Assembly: GCA_001781275.1 (NCBI GenBank)
Contig: MFLH01000052.1
Coordinates: forward strand, 1-19,315
Length of the DNA stretch: 19,315 nucleotides
Reading direction: 5' to 3'
Source: Candidatus Kaiserbacteria bacterium RIFCSPHIGHO2_02_FULL_54_11b
GTDB lineage: Bacteria > Patescibacteriota > Minisyncoccia > Phycocordibacterales > UBA2100
Of the stretch, positions 9,718-13,070 are shown in pieces (position 1 is the first letter of the stretch; the number at the start of each line of letters is the position of its first letter). The notes beneath the pieces were generated by a model. The model saw only the letters and a program-made list of their open reading frames with translations, was not told the origin of the DNA and made no database searches. Both the position numbers and the translations under genes were made by a program.

Positions 9718-10779
9718 TTAGAATGGGTTGCGGATACCGTTGCGGATCTCGAAGTGGAGATGCGAACCTGTTGATTTGCCGGTCGAACCCACGTAGCCGA
9801 TAACCTCCCCCCGCTCAACCTGCTGTCCCGGCGATACGGCGACTTTCGATTGATGCGCGTAGAGTGTCTGGCTTCCATTGCCGTGTTGGATGACAACGTA
9901 GTTACCATACCCTCCGTTCCACCCACCCTGCTTGGCTACCATGACCTCGCCTCCTGCTGATGCGAGGATCGGGGTACCGATCGGTGCGGCGAGGTCCACG
10001 CCGTTGTAGCCGTGGACACCCTGAGTCTTTACGTAACGTGCAAGCGGGATCATGTAGTACCCGATCTCGGCCGCAGAACCTTTCGGGCCTGAGCTCAAGA
10101 CGGGGCTCGTGCCTGCAGAGTTTTTCTTCACAGAGGCGGGGGCAACCGCGATTTCACCGTCGGGGATGAGGATGTCTGTCCCGACGACGAGGTTTGCGTC
10201 GTCAATATCATTAAACGTTGCTATTTCGGTTGCGTCTCCTTTAAATTTCTTTGCGATGGAAGCAAGCGTGTCGCCCTTCTTCACCGTATATTTCACGCCG
10301 GTGACAGGCAAAATGGTGAGTCGTTGTCCTATTCTTAATACGCTTCCTCGTGGCATGTCGTTGGCCCAGAGGATGGTGTTGGGAGAGACTTGGAAGAGCT
10401 TCGCGATGCCATTCAAGGTATCGCCTTCGCGTACGACGTACACGCTGATCTTCGAATTCTTCGGTTTCTCGAGATCGGCGATAGTGCCTGATGGACCTTC
10501 CGCAGGCATGAGCGCCGAATCGTCGACGATGACAATATCGCCGCCGCCACGGCCTGCCGTGGGATTGGCATTCATCGCGGGCTTCGGAAGCGCCATCGTC
10601 TGAAGGTTTCCGCCGCCCGAGGATGCTTCTCTCTGCTTTTCGGGAGCGTGAAGGATGGCGGCAACAAAATCGCCGATGACGCCGGCTCGTGCGGTCGCAG
10701 GGCTGAGTGCCCCGAGAACCAATAACAGGGATATGAGAGTAGCCGCCGAACGAGCGGGTCTGAGTGATCTATATTTCAT
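9718..10779 (-). CDS. LysM-LysM-M23 peptidoglycan hydrolase-like protein, secreted
   Basis: The ATG at 10779 gives 353 residues beginning with a clean signal peptide (basic KYRSLRPAR, hydrophobic 12-25, cleavage near ATARA/G at 32). An upstream in-frame TTG at 10878 would bury the signal. Two LysM domains, which bind glycan, lie at about 113-158 (YVVREGDTLNGIA) and 163-207 (YTVKKGDTLASIA). The M23/LytM domain (about 255-350) has VDLAAPIGTPILAS, LYAHQS and STGSHLHFE. H309, H340 and H342 match the family catalytic and metal residues, and D262 is in place. The usual first Zn ligand four residues before that Asp is Tyr258, with a His at 256 instead, so metal binding may be altered or the protein may be a non-enzymatic activator. 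No Shine-Dalgarno is obvious. It is preceded by an unusual 315-nt leader (10780-11094). Confidence 0.93.
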   Translation of the reverse strand: MKYRSLRPARSAATLISLLLVLGALSPATARAGVIGDFVAAILHAPEKQREASSGGGNLQTMALPKPAMNANPTAGRGGGDIVIVDDSALMPAEGPSGTIADLEKPKNSKISVYVVREGDTLNGIAKLFQVSPNTILWANDMPRGSVLRIGQRLTILPVTGVKYTVKKGDTLASIAKKFKGDATEIATFNDIDDANLVVGTDILIPDGEIAVAPASVKKNSAGTSPVLSSGPKGSAAEIGYYMIPLARYVKTQGVHGYNGVDLAAPIGTPILASAGGEVMVAKQGGWNGGYGNYVVIQHGNGSQTLYAHQSKVAVSPGQQVERGEVIGYVGSTGKSTGSHLHFEIRNGIRNPF

Positions 10780-10826
10780 CGCTCGCGGACGTGAGAAGTC
10801 CCGCTGCGAATCATTATGGTTACTTA

Positions 10827-10847
10827 CTGATATAAGCCGTTTCGATG
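10827..10847 (-). repeat. Leader repeat copy 2 (CATCG..AAACGGCTTAT..ATCAG)
   Basis: Read on the reverse strand this stretch has CATCG, AAACGGCTTAT and ATCAG in immediate succession. The same three blocks, spaced by two short insertions, occur at 10935-10971. Both copies are complementary to the 5' AAGCCG and CGATG segments of the predicted leftward RNA, so the two may compete for the same partner. Confidence 0.65.
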
Positions 10848-10911
10848 CTTTTCTGTCTGCTGAATTACAGACAAGCAAGACCTCACAGACTTTTCATCAT
10901 GCTCCACGGGG

Positions 10912-10936
10912 AAAAGGGGTCTTTGGTACCTCCCCT
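10912..10936 (-). terminator. Intrinsic-terminator-like hairpin in the M23 leader
   Basis: On the reverse strand AGGGG (10936-10932) pairs with CCCCT (10919-10915) around a 12-nt loop containing GGTACC, and TTTT follows. It lies about 160 nt downstream of the predicted start and 130 nt before the M23 ATG, so it would stop transcription before the gene. The stem is only 5 bp, so strength is uncertain. Confidence 0.5.
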
Positions 10937-10971
10937 GATATAGCTAGACGATAAGCCGTTTTTCAACGATG
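10935..10971 (-). repeat. Leader repeat copy 1 (3' arm of predicted closing stem)
   Basis: On the reverse strand: CATCG, then TTGAA, AAACGGCTTAT, an 11-nt insertion and ATCAG. It shares its three blocks with 10827-10847. CGGCTT and CATCG here are the predicted partners of the RNA 5' arm. Confidence 0.6.
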
Positions 10972-11099
10972 GCGCGTAGGATGATCTGGAATATGGCTCA
11001 AAATCTCGCTTTTATAGAGACTCGGCCTCAGGACTAGTTCAGCAATGCCACCGCTCGGTTCACTGTACCTTCATCGAGATACACGTCAACCGGCTTAAA

Positions 11100-11128
11100 A
11101 CTATACCAGTGGATAACTATTCTGTCAA
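11100..11128 (-). promoter_or_regulatory. Near-consensus sigma70-type promoter reading left
   Basis: On the reverse strand a perfect TTGACA (11123-11128) is followed after exactly 17 nt by TATAGT (11100-11105), with a TGG extension before the -10. It is the best promoter in the window, yet no gene begins within 300 nt; it drives the leader described at 10912-11094 and then the M23 gene. Confidence 0.85.
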
Positions 11129-11144
11129 TACTTTGAGCGGCTCG

Positions 11145-11153
11145 TGCTATAGT
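11145..11153 (+). promoter_or_regulatory. Extended -10 promoter, leaderless start of uvrD
   Basis: TGC plus TATAGT (11148-11153) ends 6 nt before the GTG at 11160. Its -35 position overlaps the TTGACA of the opposing promoter, so the two divergent promoters may compete for polymerase. Confidence 0.7.
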
Positions 11154-11159
11154 GGCCGA

Positions 11160-13070
11160 GTGAAGTATCTCGAAGGCTTAAATGCGGCTCAAAAAGAGGC
11201 TGTTTTGCATACTCAAGGCCCACTTTTGATCATCGCGGGAGCCGGAGCCGGCAAAACCAAGACCATCACGCACCGTATTGCGCATCTAATGGAAGAGGGT
11301 ATTCCCGCTTCGTCAATACTCGCCGTCACGTTTACGAACAAGGCGGCGGGTGAAATGCGTGACCGTGTCCGCGCACTCATTCCGGAGAGGCGCGGCGGGT
11401 TACCGGTCATTGCTACGTTCCATTCGCTTGGAGTGCGCCTTCTGCGGGAATTCAACGAAGAAGCTGGGATATCGCGCAACTTTAGTATTTGGGATCACGA
11501 CGACAGCCTGCGGGCGGTGCGGGCAGAACTCAAGCGGCTCGAGACGGAAGAGTGGACCCCGCGGCAAATTCTCGCTGCCATCTCGCGGGAGAAAGGGGGA
11601 GGACGTACGCAGAGAGACTACGACGAGCGCGCCTCGACGCGTCGAGAACAAATGGTAGCGAGGATCTGGGAACGATACGAACAAGAACTCGCTACGCAAA
11701 ATAGCCTCGACTTCGACGACCTCCTGGTGCGCACGCTCACCCTTCTGCGTGAGTCGCCACGCACGCTTTCGCTTTTACAAAATCGATGGCACTACCTCAC
11801 GGTCGACGAGTACCAAGACACGAGCAACGTGCAGTACGAGATGGTAAAGCTCTTGAGCAATGCGCACAACAACATATGCGTCGTCGGTGATCTCGATCAG
11901 TGCATCTACACGTGGCGACAGGCGGAGATCGGAAATTTACTTTCTTTTGAACGCACGTTCCCCGATGCAAAGGTTGTGCGGCTCGAACAAAACTACCGCT
12001 CTACGCGGACGATCCTCGCCGCGGCGAATGCGATCATCGAGAAAAATACGAACCGCATCCCGAAGACGCTCTTTAGCGAGGGCGGGACGGGTGACCCAAT
12101 CGTCGTGCATGGCGCCTTGGATGAGCGGTATGAAGCATGGTTTGTCGCGGAGAGGGCTACGTCACTCATCGAACGTGGCGTCGGACCGCGTGAGATAGCC
12201 GTCCTCTATCGGGAGAATTCGCAATCGCGCGTACTCGAAGAAGCGCTCCTGCACGCAGGGTTACCGTATCAGGTCCTGGGCACACGCTTCTTTGAACGCA
12301 AGGAGGTAAAAGATGTACTCTCGTATCTGCGCGCAGCCCTGAATCCGAAAAGCACGAACGACATCGTACGCATCGCGGGGGTGCCGCCGCGCGGTATCGG
12401 TCGTGTCACGCTGGAGAAGATGTTTGGTGGACAGCCGCTCGGGTCGGCAACCGCAAAAGTAGTCGCGTTCCAGGCAACTCTTGCAAGTATCCGACATGCG
12501 ATCAATACGCTTCCCGCGTCGGATACTGTGCGATTTTGCATCGAGGCGAGCGGCATTCAAAACATGTACGGTGGTAAGACCGAGGAGGACGCTGAGCCCC
12601 TCGGCAATGTGCGCGAACTCGCGAATCTCGCCGTAAAATACGACAGTATTGAGCCGCCCGCAGGGATCGAACGGCTTTTGGAAGAGGCAGCGCTTCAAAG
12701 CGAGCAGGATGAACTCGATATGGAGAAGGGCAAGGGCGGCATATCGCTCATGACCGCACACGCGGCGAAGGGATTGGAATTTGATGCGGTTTTCATCGTC
12801 GGGCTCGAGCAGGGTCTCTTTCCTTCAGTGCGCAACGACGAAGGACGTGACCCGGAGGAAGAGCGGCGACTCTTCTACGTCGCGCTCACACGAGCGCGCA
12901 AGTATGTATTTTTGAGCTACGCCTTCGAGCGTACAAAATACGGCACGCGTGAGCGGGCACTGCCTTCAGAATTCATCTCCGACATCGACCAACGATTATT
13001 CGCAGAAACAGAAAGCGCACCGCTGCAGAAAAAGCGCGGGCTACTCGATGACTTCTATGAGATCCGGTAG
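11160..13070 (+). CDS. uvrD: UvrD/PcrA/Rep-family superfamily 1A DNA helicase
   Basis: A 3'-5' DNA helicase of the UvrD/PcrA type, used in repair and in removing proteins from DNA. The GTG at 11160 (VKYLEGLNAAQKEAV) was preferred to ATG 11109 because it starts right at the family N-terminus and 6 nt after a -10 box; the extra 17 residues would be encoded by promoter sequence. All helicase motifs are seen in the 636-residue product: Q motif LNAAQ (7-11), Walker A GAGAGKT (27-33), TFTNKAA (57-63), TFHSLG (86-91), motif II DEYQD (216-220), motif III around GDLDQCIYTWRQ (243-254), QNYRST (277-282), TAHAAKGLEFD (about 531) and ALTRAR (about 573). Motif III has Cys and Gln where DQSIY and WRG are usual. 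No C-terminal Tudor-like tail is evident. Its end overlaps rsmA. Confidence 0.96.
   Translation: MKYLEGLNAAQKEAVLHTQGPLLIIAGAGAGKTKTITHRIAHLMEEGIPASSILAVTFTNKAAGEMRDRVRALIPERRGGLPVIATFHSLGVRLLREFNEEAGISRNFSIWDHDDSLRAVRAELKRLETEEWTPRQILAAISREKGGGRTQRDYDERASTRREQMVARIWERYEQELATQNSLDFDDLLVRTLTLLRESPRTLSLLQNRWHYLTVDEYQDTSNVQYEMVKLLSNAHNNICVVGDLDQCIYTWRQAEIGNLLSFERTFPDAKVVRLEQNYRSTRTILAAANAIIEKNTNRIPKTLFSEGGTGDPIVVHGALDERYEAWFVAERATSLIERGVGPREIAVLYRENSQSRVLEEALLHAGLPYQVLGTRFFERKEVKDVLSYLRAALNPKSTNDIVRIAGVPPRGIGRVTLEKMFGGQPLGSATAKVVAFQATLASIRHAINTLPASDTVRFCIEASGIQNMYGGKTEEDAEPLGNVRELANLAVKYDSIEPPAGIERLLEEAALQSEQDELDMEKGKGGISLMTAHAAKGLEFDAVFIVGLEQGLFPSVRNDEGRDPEEERRLFYVALTRARKYVFLSYAFERTKYGTRERALPSEFISDIDQRLFAETESAPLQKKRGLLDDFYEIR

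Follow-up and report, generated by a model that had tools for sequence, protein, structure and literature searches.

Introduction

Structured RNAs and unusual start codons have each been described in systems that resemble the one treated here. The ydaO/c-di-AMP riboswitch stands before LysM/M23 genes, and the dicistrovirus intergenic-region IRES is characterised by a pseudoknot beside a non-AUG start.

Non-canonical bacterial starts for which an experimental characterisation exists are very few (PMC5472188). Those under the control of IF3 include the AUU, AUC or AUA of infC and the AUU of pcnB (PMC5472188, PMC13009471), as well as the GUC start of Streptomyces sigR, which is repressed by IF3 (PMC5472188). 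Similarly, Staphylococcus cvfC1 (AUU) and ccpN (AUA) have conserved non-canonical starts that lower expression (PMC13009471). In the sections of these two papers drawn on here, the non-AUG starts are repressed or limited and are accompanied by strong Shine-Dalgarno sequences (PMC5472188, PMC13009471). Bacteria without CCUCC are already known from a report whose passages used here make no mention of Patescibacteria (PMC10783764).

The locus and its neighbours

The window, i.e., the whole stretch of DNA that was analysed, comprises 19,315 nucleotides of a Candidatus Kaiserbacteria genome (Patescibacteria; assembly of 0.74 Mb, 83% complete), and its locus is labelled L010 in the locus survey. A preliminary description of the window had placed in it a near-consensus promoter and a structured, terminator-bearing leader before a peptidoglycan hydrolase. 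Pfam gives two LysM domains and an M23 peptidase downstream of the leader. The features of the locus are as follows.

9718..10833, minus strand: LysM-LysM-M23 peptidase, proposed full coding sequence (Pfam M23 and LysM, frame survey)
10831..10838, minus strand: GGCTT-ATA, copy 2, with the proposed translation start AUA at 10833-10831 (in frame, open in relatives)
10888..10957, minus strand: variable hairpin insert P3, including the supposed terminator 10936-10912 (comparison)
10951..10957, minus strand: GGCTTAT copy 1, 37 nt after the AGCC of P2 (by eye), at the start-site position of relatives that have no insert
10965..10973, minus strand: helix P1, 3' strand (covariation)
10995..11027, minus strand: hairpin P2, GGC 11027-11025 with GCC 10997-10995 and GTCTC 11021-11017 with GAGAT 11007-11003 (11 pairs)
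11047..11055, minus strand: helix P1, 5' strand, predicted 5' end of the RNA (9 pairs covary)
11062..11089, minus strand: conserved promoter TTGACG-16-TACAGT (alignment), with a predicted RNA start near 11055
11100..11128, minus strand: TTGACA-17-TATAGT promoter of the preliminary description (present; -10 not conserved)
11108..11128, minus strand: conserved box TTGACA-N6-TTATCCACT, DnaA-box-like, one mismatch to TTATCCACA (comparison and window match)
11160..13070, plus strand: uvrD/pcrA-type helicase gene, divergent and leaderless-like, TATAGT at 11148-11153, GTG start at 11160 (Pfam UvrD)

The leader is conserved in the genus. A nucleotide search matched 6 of 60 genomes, its own included, with 68-76% identity in the long matches, and a covariance model built from five sequences matched 41 of 52 genus genomes at one place each (weakest E = 0.07). 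Gene context played no part in the covariance-model search; an M23 gene was nevertheless found downstream of 40 of the 41 genus matches, the contig of the remaining one (L018) ending before it, and uvrD lies divergently upstream in 38 (exceptions L030, L038 and L045). As the M23 gene follows the leader so regularly, a stand-alone ncRNA, which had been considered as an option, is unlikely. The same model run over 297 order genomes matched six, all from this genus. Among the 11 genus genomes that it left unmatched, six have an M23 ortholog, four have only a weaker paralog-like match and one has none; the leaders of those six orthologs, together with one sister-genus leader, were read by eye.

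A comparison with Rfam yielded nothing for the whole window at gathering scores and nothing for 10700-11200 with E values of up to 5. No paper on the leader or its start codon was found in literature searches, which were not exhaustive. The earlier surmise of an undescribed structured leader was thus borne out, the leader being conserved, covarying in P1 and P2, gene-specific and without an Rfam match, so that its novelty is not rejected by a known family. Judged from the sequence comparisons below, it is real, conserved and new to Rfam; the riboswitch with a terminator that had been proposed is, however, not what it represents.

The UvrD protein encoded beside the leader showed a peculiarity of its own in other genomes. 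In G017 (L003, 1882-3366), it has an apparent intein-like insertion after GDLDQ (a CLVAGTEI... stretch), and the UvrD matches of G012 (L024) and G023 (L031) end at residues 249 and 259, respectively, which points to an intein-like insertion in these as well.

Reading frame and proposed start codon

The promoter had been said to start no ORF for about 315 nt. This did not hold, as the M23 frame runs without a stop as far upstream as 10893 and appears by comparison to be coding from 10833, while the nearest canonical in-frame starts in the window are TTG 10878 and ATG 10779. On this comparative reading, the 3' part of the supposed leader is coding and the conserved start of its frame is non-AUG, both of which the first reading had missed.

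The frame was assessed by a frame-neutral test that took, within 200 nt of the signal-peptide core, whichever GGCTTAT lay closest to it in 46 genus and 81 other-family loci. A perfect GGCTTAT was missing from this range in 13 genus and 35 other-family loci; among those having one, it lies in the M23 frame in 32 of 33 and 45 of 46, respectively (77/79 in all), and each of the two exceptions (L026 and L113) has a degenerate copy that is in frame. From GGCTTAT onwards, the M23 frame is open in 76 of the 77 loci, against 24 of 154 for the other two frames. In control windows inside the gene, GGCTTAT occurred once in 127. The codon that follows GGCTT in the 77 in-frame loci is ATT in 43, ATA in 21, ATC in 13 and ATG in none; a conserved non-canonical codon, as found in IF3-type starts, is hence present, and it would itself be the start. 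At the matching place, L144, L157 and L165 have ATG (by eye).

Canonical starts are frequently missing upstream. None lies between the stop and AUH in 53 of the 77 loci, and none at all was found in 22 of these 77 (nearest-GGCTTAT set) and in 25 of 81 loci of the order-survey set, for which 108 of 118 genomes were matched, 89 non-genus loci read and 81 parsed. In a further set of 99 loci, anchored by at least four of the five GGCTT letters, 26 are without ATG, GTG or TTG between the in-frame stop and the signal peptide (uvrD control, 0/75), and 11 of these 26 have a stop within four codons of AUH. Among 64 anchored loci, the in-frame stop stands at most three codons upstream of ATH in 15, and there is no canonical start between the two in 39. 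A figure of 32 of 106 loci without a canonical start was set aside because the automatic signal-peptide finder had misplaced a few (L009, L020 and L061). Two observations at the protein level speak for coding. The Ser of the N-terminal [DE][SP] motif, read by eye, is encoded by TCN in most loci but by AGC in two of them, L028 and L053. Substitutions at codon positions 1, 2 and 3 number 171, 174 and 236 in 26 non-independent pairs, a modest excess at the third position.

The alternative that survives best is an ordinary 5' UTR, in which translation would begin at a canonical start nearer the signal peptide (ATG 10779 in the window) and GGCTTAT would be a non-coding RNA motif. We regard it as unlikely, though serious enough to be weighed: at least one canonical start is present between the stop and the signal peptide in 73 of the 99 anchored loci, the window included, and ATG or GTG occupies the MK/VK position in L010-L013 and L019. 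Against it stand the locking of GGCTTAT to the M23 frame with the frames open, the 26 anchored loci without any canonical start, and the position of the first canonical codon at, in or after the signal-peptide core in L014, L032 and L041. The start at AUH is therefore proposed because frame, conservation and missing canonical starts argue for it, comparatively rather than experimentally.

The infC gene was used as a yardstick, its motif being recovered from no more than 12 of 27 loci. In Kaiserbacteria, an in-frame ATG is present in infC in five of five readable genus loci, which thus give no sign of the known kind of IF3 autocontrol. In L222 and L231, which belong to other families, the apparent start of infC is CTG or TTG, followed by ST.TRINHQI, with no ATG in the open frame upstream, making it a further rare-start candidate in the order.

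Recurrence across the order

A related module, composed of a hairpin, a distance of 36-39 nt and GGCUU-AUH, recurs across the order as judged by its sequence pattern. A hairpin of the form GGCYN...NAGCC stands upstream of AUH in 32 of 57 other-family anchored loci, as against 2 of 57 in the control; most of the loci with this hairpin then have AUU or AUA, and in 28 it is located 52-67 nt before AUH. AGCC and GGC are separated by 36-39 nt in 23 of the 28 loci that could be measured within 80 nt; among the Kaiserbacteria loci measured, 29 of 39 have this separation.

A model built for the module matched 142 of the 397 genomes of the order with E values of up to 0.1, a count that includes many weak matches and second places left unchecked, and it matched none of the 11 own-genus genomes drawn. 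Among the 30 strongest matches, 14 were checked: M23 follows in all 14, and the spaced module is readable by pattern in 12. Ten of these 14 come from genomes that had not contributed to the training set, and each of the ten is followed by M23.

Many of the loci L151-L170, most of them named Nomurabacteria, possess a different, strongly conserved leader before M23, CGTGAGAACCTTTGTTTGCAG...GGTCGTCCTG...AAATCTCGCGATA. It again has a TTT-ATA frame start, and in several of these loci there is no canonical start.

Promoters, leaderless-like genes and the ribosome

The near-consensus promoter described at 11128-11100 is present in its letters, with TG before the -10, and TTGACA-17-TATAGT is the best of eight promoter-like sites in the window, where 9.8 are expected by chance. 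Its -10 hexamer, however, is kept in few relatives, with T1, A2 and T6 all retained in 3 of 45 parsed loci. In the 41-row alignment, the most conserved letters are TTGACA...TATCCaC, followed by TTGAC...GgTA..GTgaa. A conserved promoter thus appears at 11089-11062, 39 bp downstream of the one first described and below the DnaA-box-like site, and the TA and GT of its -10 hexamer are found in at least 90% of the 41 aligned loci. The support for this promoter is the alignment, because its score of 45/45 came from loci preselected for it and is not independent. In the loci that could be parsed (45 of 48), TATCC precedes the second TTGAC by 26 nt in 43 cases and by 27 nt in two.

The upstream box pattern occurs in 37 of 52 genus genomes and at the leader locus in 35 of them (places sorted by eye), with eight matches elsewhere and three for the reversed control pattern. 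In other families, a DnaA box is found in 48 of 81 order loci, compared with 5 and 7 of 81 gene windows and 7 of 81 shuffled sequences, and the strict TTATCCACA in 17 of 81 compared with none. The ninth base of the box is A in 34 of 37 order loci, whereas it is C or T in 48 of 48 genus boxes; by its letters, the box of the other families is a better DnaA box than that of the genus. Box and promoter are 25-27 or 15-16 apart in 28 of 37 measured order loci, two spacings that differ by about one helical turn, so the box has the conserved, helically phased place of a DnaA-regulated promoter. We infer that transcription is controlled by this putative DnaA site.

The divergent uvrD gene of the window has its -10 six nt ahead of the start codon, and in uvrD relatives a TAnnnT hexamer stands 6-8 nt ahead of the start in 56 of 72. 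As leaderless-like genes put the -10 6-7 nt before the start codon, the leader RNA is predicted to begin near 11055, which is the first base of P1. Window genes 5720, 7911 and 15223 (+) are also leaderless-like, with TATACT 6-7 nt before ATG or GTG, and GGAGG is absent from the 25-nt stretches upstream of these three genes (by eye).

CCUCC is absent from the 16S tails in all nine that were readable (10 scanned of 12 16S loci). Before AUH there is no G-rich Shine-Dalgarno-like stretch either, as G is a minority at -13 to -6, with no position reaching more than 15 of 64 loci. These cells thus seem to be without the anti-Shine-Dalgarno and to use leaderless-like genes. In L306 (G039), the match to 16S rRNA is 2360 bases long, as though the gene contained an insertion or intron.

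Fold of the leader and the hairpin insert

The closing helix P1 pairs AGCGGTGGC with GCCATCGTT (11055-11047 with 10973-10965). In the 41-row alignment, which was fitted by the model and hence leans towards it, all nine pairs of P1 changed on both sides, with 91.1% of cells paired, as did 10 of the 11 pairs of P2, whose two helices have 98.3% and 71.8% of their cells paired. Together with one isolated pair, P1 and P2 reach 84.9% standard pairs, and 20 of the 21 pairs changed on both sides. None of 500 shuffles reached any of the covariation measures, and sliding the partners by 1-3 columns lowered the pairing from this value to 33-48%. A looser P1 search without position limits gave a mean of 20.6 for cognate and 19.4 for non-cognate strands, 33% of the non-cognate scores reaching the cognate median, so cognate was not separated from non-cognate; since this search did not discriminate, the claim for P1 and P2 rests on covariation in the fitted alignment. 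The folding energy is unremarkable (z -0.42 and -0.97).

Three stems had been named in the preliminary description, of which GTCTC/GAGAT is real, being part of the covarying P2. The other two, AAGCCG/CGGCTT and CGATG/CATCG, are unsupported because AAGCCG and CGATG belong to the promoter and so precede the RNA start predicted near 11055. For a local helix AAGCC:GGCTT just ahead of copy 2, the support is modest, with 23 of 41 full pairings versus 8.0 expected. A pseudoknot AGCC:GGCUU was also considered; its spacing fits, but it is not claimed, as it is without compensatory change, and L027 and L030 break the pairing (by eye).

The letters of the supposed terminator are there at 10936-10912, but it is unlisted by the terminator scan and not conserved, and its T-run sits within the P3 hairpin that is flanked by the two GGCTTAT copies. 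By our reading, other hairpins occupy this position in 29 of 41 relatives and none does in 12, which carry a single GGCTTAT copy. In some species, the insert is a REP-like palindrome that is also present elsewhere in genus genomes, and in others it differs. As a dispersed element, it gave nothing above control with a strict pattern; blastn found it at 24 places in 18 of 52 genus genomes, six of them being the M23 leader itself, and 14 of the other 18 matches were read and look like REP-like palindromes. Such palindromes, CTAGCGAAGCGAG...CTTCCGAGCGAGCGACG, occur elsewhere in Kaiserbacteria genomes (L076-L089), and a similar insert is present in the M23 leader of several species.

These results bear on a riboswitch or ligand-sensing attenuator, in which P1-P2 would bind a metabolite and control the terminator, and make it distinctly improbable. 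Such a device would fit the 5'-terminal closing helix, the conserved letters between the helices and the gene-specific leader, and a covarying conserved fold is present on the model-fitted alignment, but a conserved terminator with a U-tract is missing from the scan and from an insert that is variable or absent, Rfam gives no match, and a single place per genome leaves no regulon. The riboswitch/attenuator architecture originally put forward fails on the same points, and the c-di-AMP (ydaO) type mentioned with it fares no better, the covariance model of that family being unmatched in the window or in 10700-11200.

It is very unlikely that the conservation is of DNA only, i.e., that of a promoter with a DnaA site to which the similarity of P1 was added by chance. 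The promoter boxes do carry the strongest conservation and the loose P1 test did not discriminate; the compensatory changes in P1 and P2 and the near-constant spacing from hairpin to start speak against it.

Hardly credible at all is programmed translational bypassing, in which ribosomes would read GGCTTAT copy 1, skip the stop-containing hairpin insert and take up translation again at copy 2, for although identical 7-nt flanks surround a hairpin and TAG stands two codons past copy 1 in REP-type inserts, the frame into copy 1 is without ATG, GTG, TTG or CTG in L010 (window), L011, L015, L017 and L026, which therefore do not have the open frame with a start into the take-off site of T4 gene 60-type bypassing, and copy 1 is altered to GGCTATAA or GGCTGTAA in L025, L028, L041 and L042, where copy 2 keeps its in-frame ATH.

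Proposed mechanism

The reading that we favour, and consider probable, is that a conserved non-AUG start under a gene-specific structured leader controls the amount of the LysM/M23 hydrolase. Transcription from the 11089-11062 promoter would start near 11055, below the DnaA-box-like site, through which DnaA could exert control. The RNA would then open directly with P1 enclosing P2, a fold shown by covariation and a 5' end predicted from the promoter. Translation of the hydrolase would start at the AUH directly after GGCUU (AUA 10833 here), and the weak codon and the structured leader would most likely keep it low and conditional; IF3 acts in this manner on other non-AUG starts and may do so here. 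In this lineage, a hairpin insert between two GGCTTAT copies would have shifted the start downstream by 119 nt. The inputs to this control are likely to be IF3 and DnaA.

A bolder version, which we hold only tentatively and think rather doubtful, is that the P1-P2 hairpin, the 36-39 nt and GGCUU form a ribosome-positioning RNA, a bacterial counterpart of an IRES, that would select the non-AUG codon of a single gene in an order without the anti-Shine-Dalgarno, the gene being that of a cell-wall hydrolase whose transcription DnaA would couple to chromosome replication.

If the favoured reading of a non-AUG start under a structured leader is true, it describes an unusual protein start in cells whose ribosomes seem to be without the usual landing signal, and gene finders, which use ATG, GTG and TTG only, misplace the N-terminus of this LysM/M23 protein. 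It would suggest how reduced bacteria limit a dangerous enzyme, perhaps coupling it to the cell cycle. Furthermore, an AUH start across many families without Shine-Dalgarno pairing would make it testable how ribosomes select internal starts once the anti-Shine-Dalgarno has been lost.

Comparison with known systems

Like ydaO, the present RNA is a leader before a cell-wall hydrolase; unlike it, the leader has no Rfam match and no conserved terminator. With the dicistrovirus IRES, it shares a structured RNA before a non-AUG start without Shine-Dalgarno, but it is part of a bacterial mRNA, and a pseudoknot at its start has no covariation support.

The conserved AUH codons also recall cvfC1 and ccpN, which rely on extended Shine-Dalgarno pairing in the parts of the source used here (PMC13009471), whereas the readable 16S tails of these bacteria are without CCUCC. 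The sigR gene is similar in having a conserved rare start codon that gene finders misplace and differs in its strong AGGAGGTG site, as given in the cited passages (PMC5472188), G being a minority at -13 to -6 in the present loci. In infC and pcnB, as is proposed here, a conserved AUH start keeps the gene weakly translated; the gene treated here encodes a cell-wall hydrolase, has a structured leader and no Shine-Dalgarno-like stretch, and may be subject to IF3. The compensating strong or extended Shine-Dalgarno of IF3-type starts was found neither in the 64 loci nor in the nine of nine tails, and because it is absent, the leader start is best placed as a variant, rather than a member, of the infC/sigR type.
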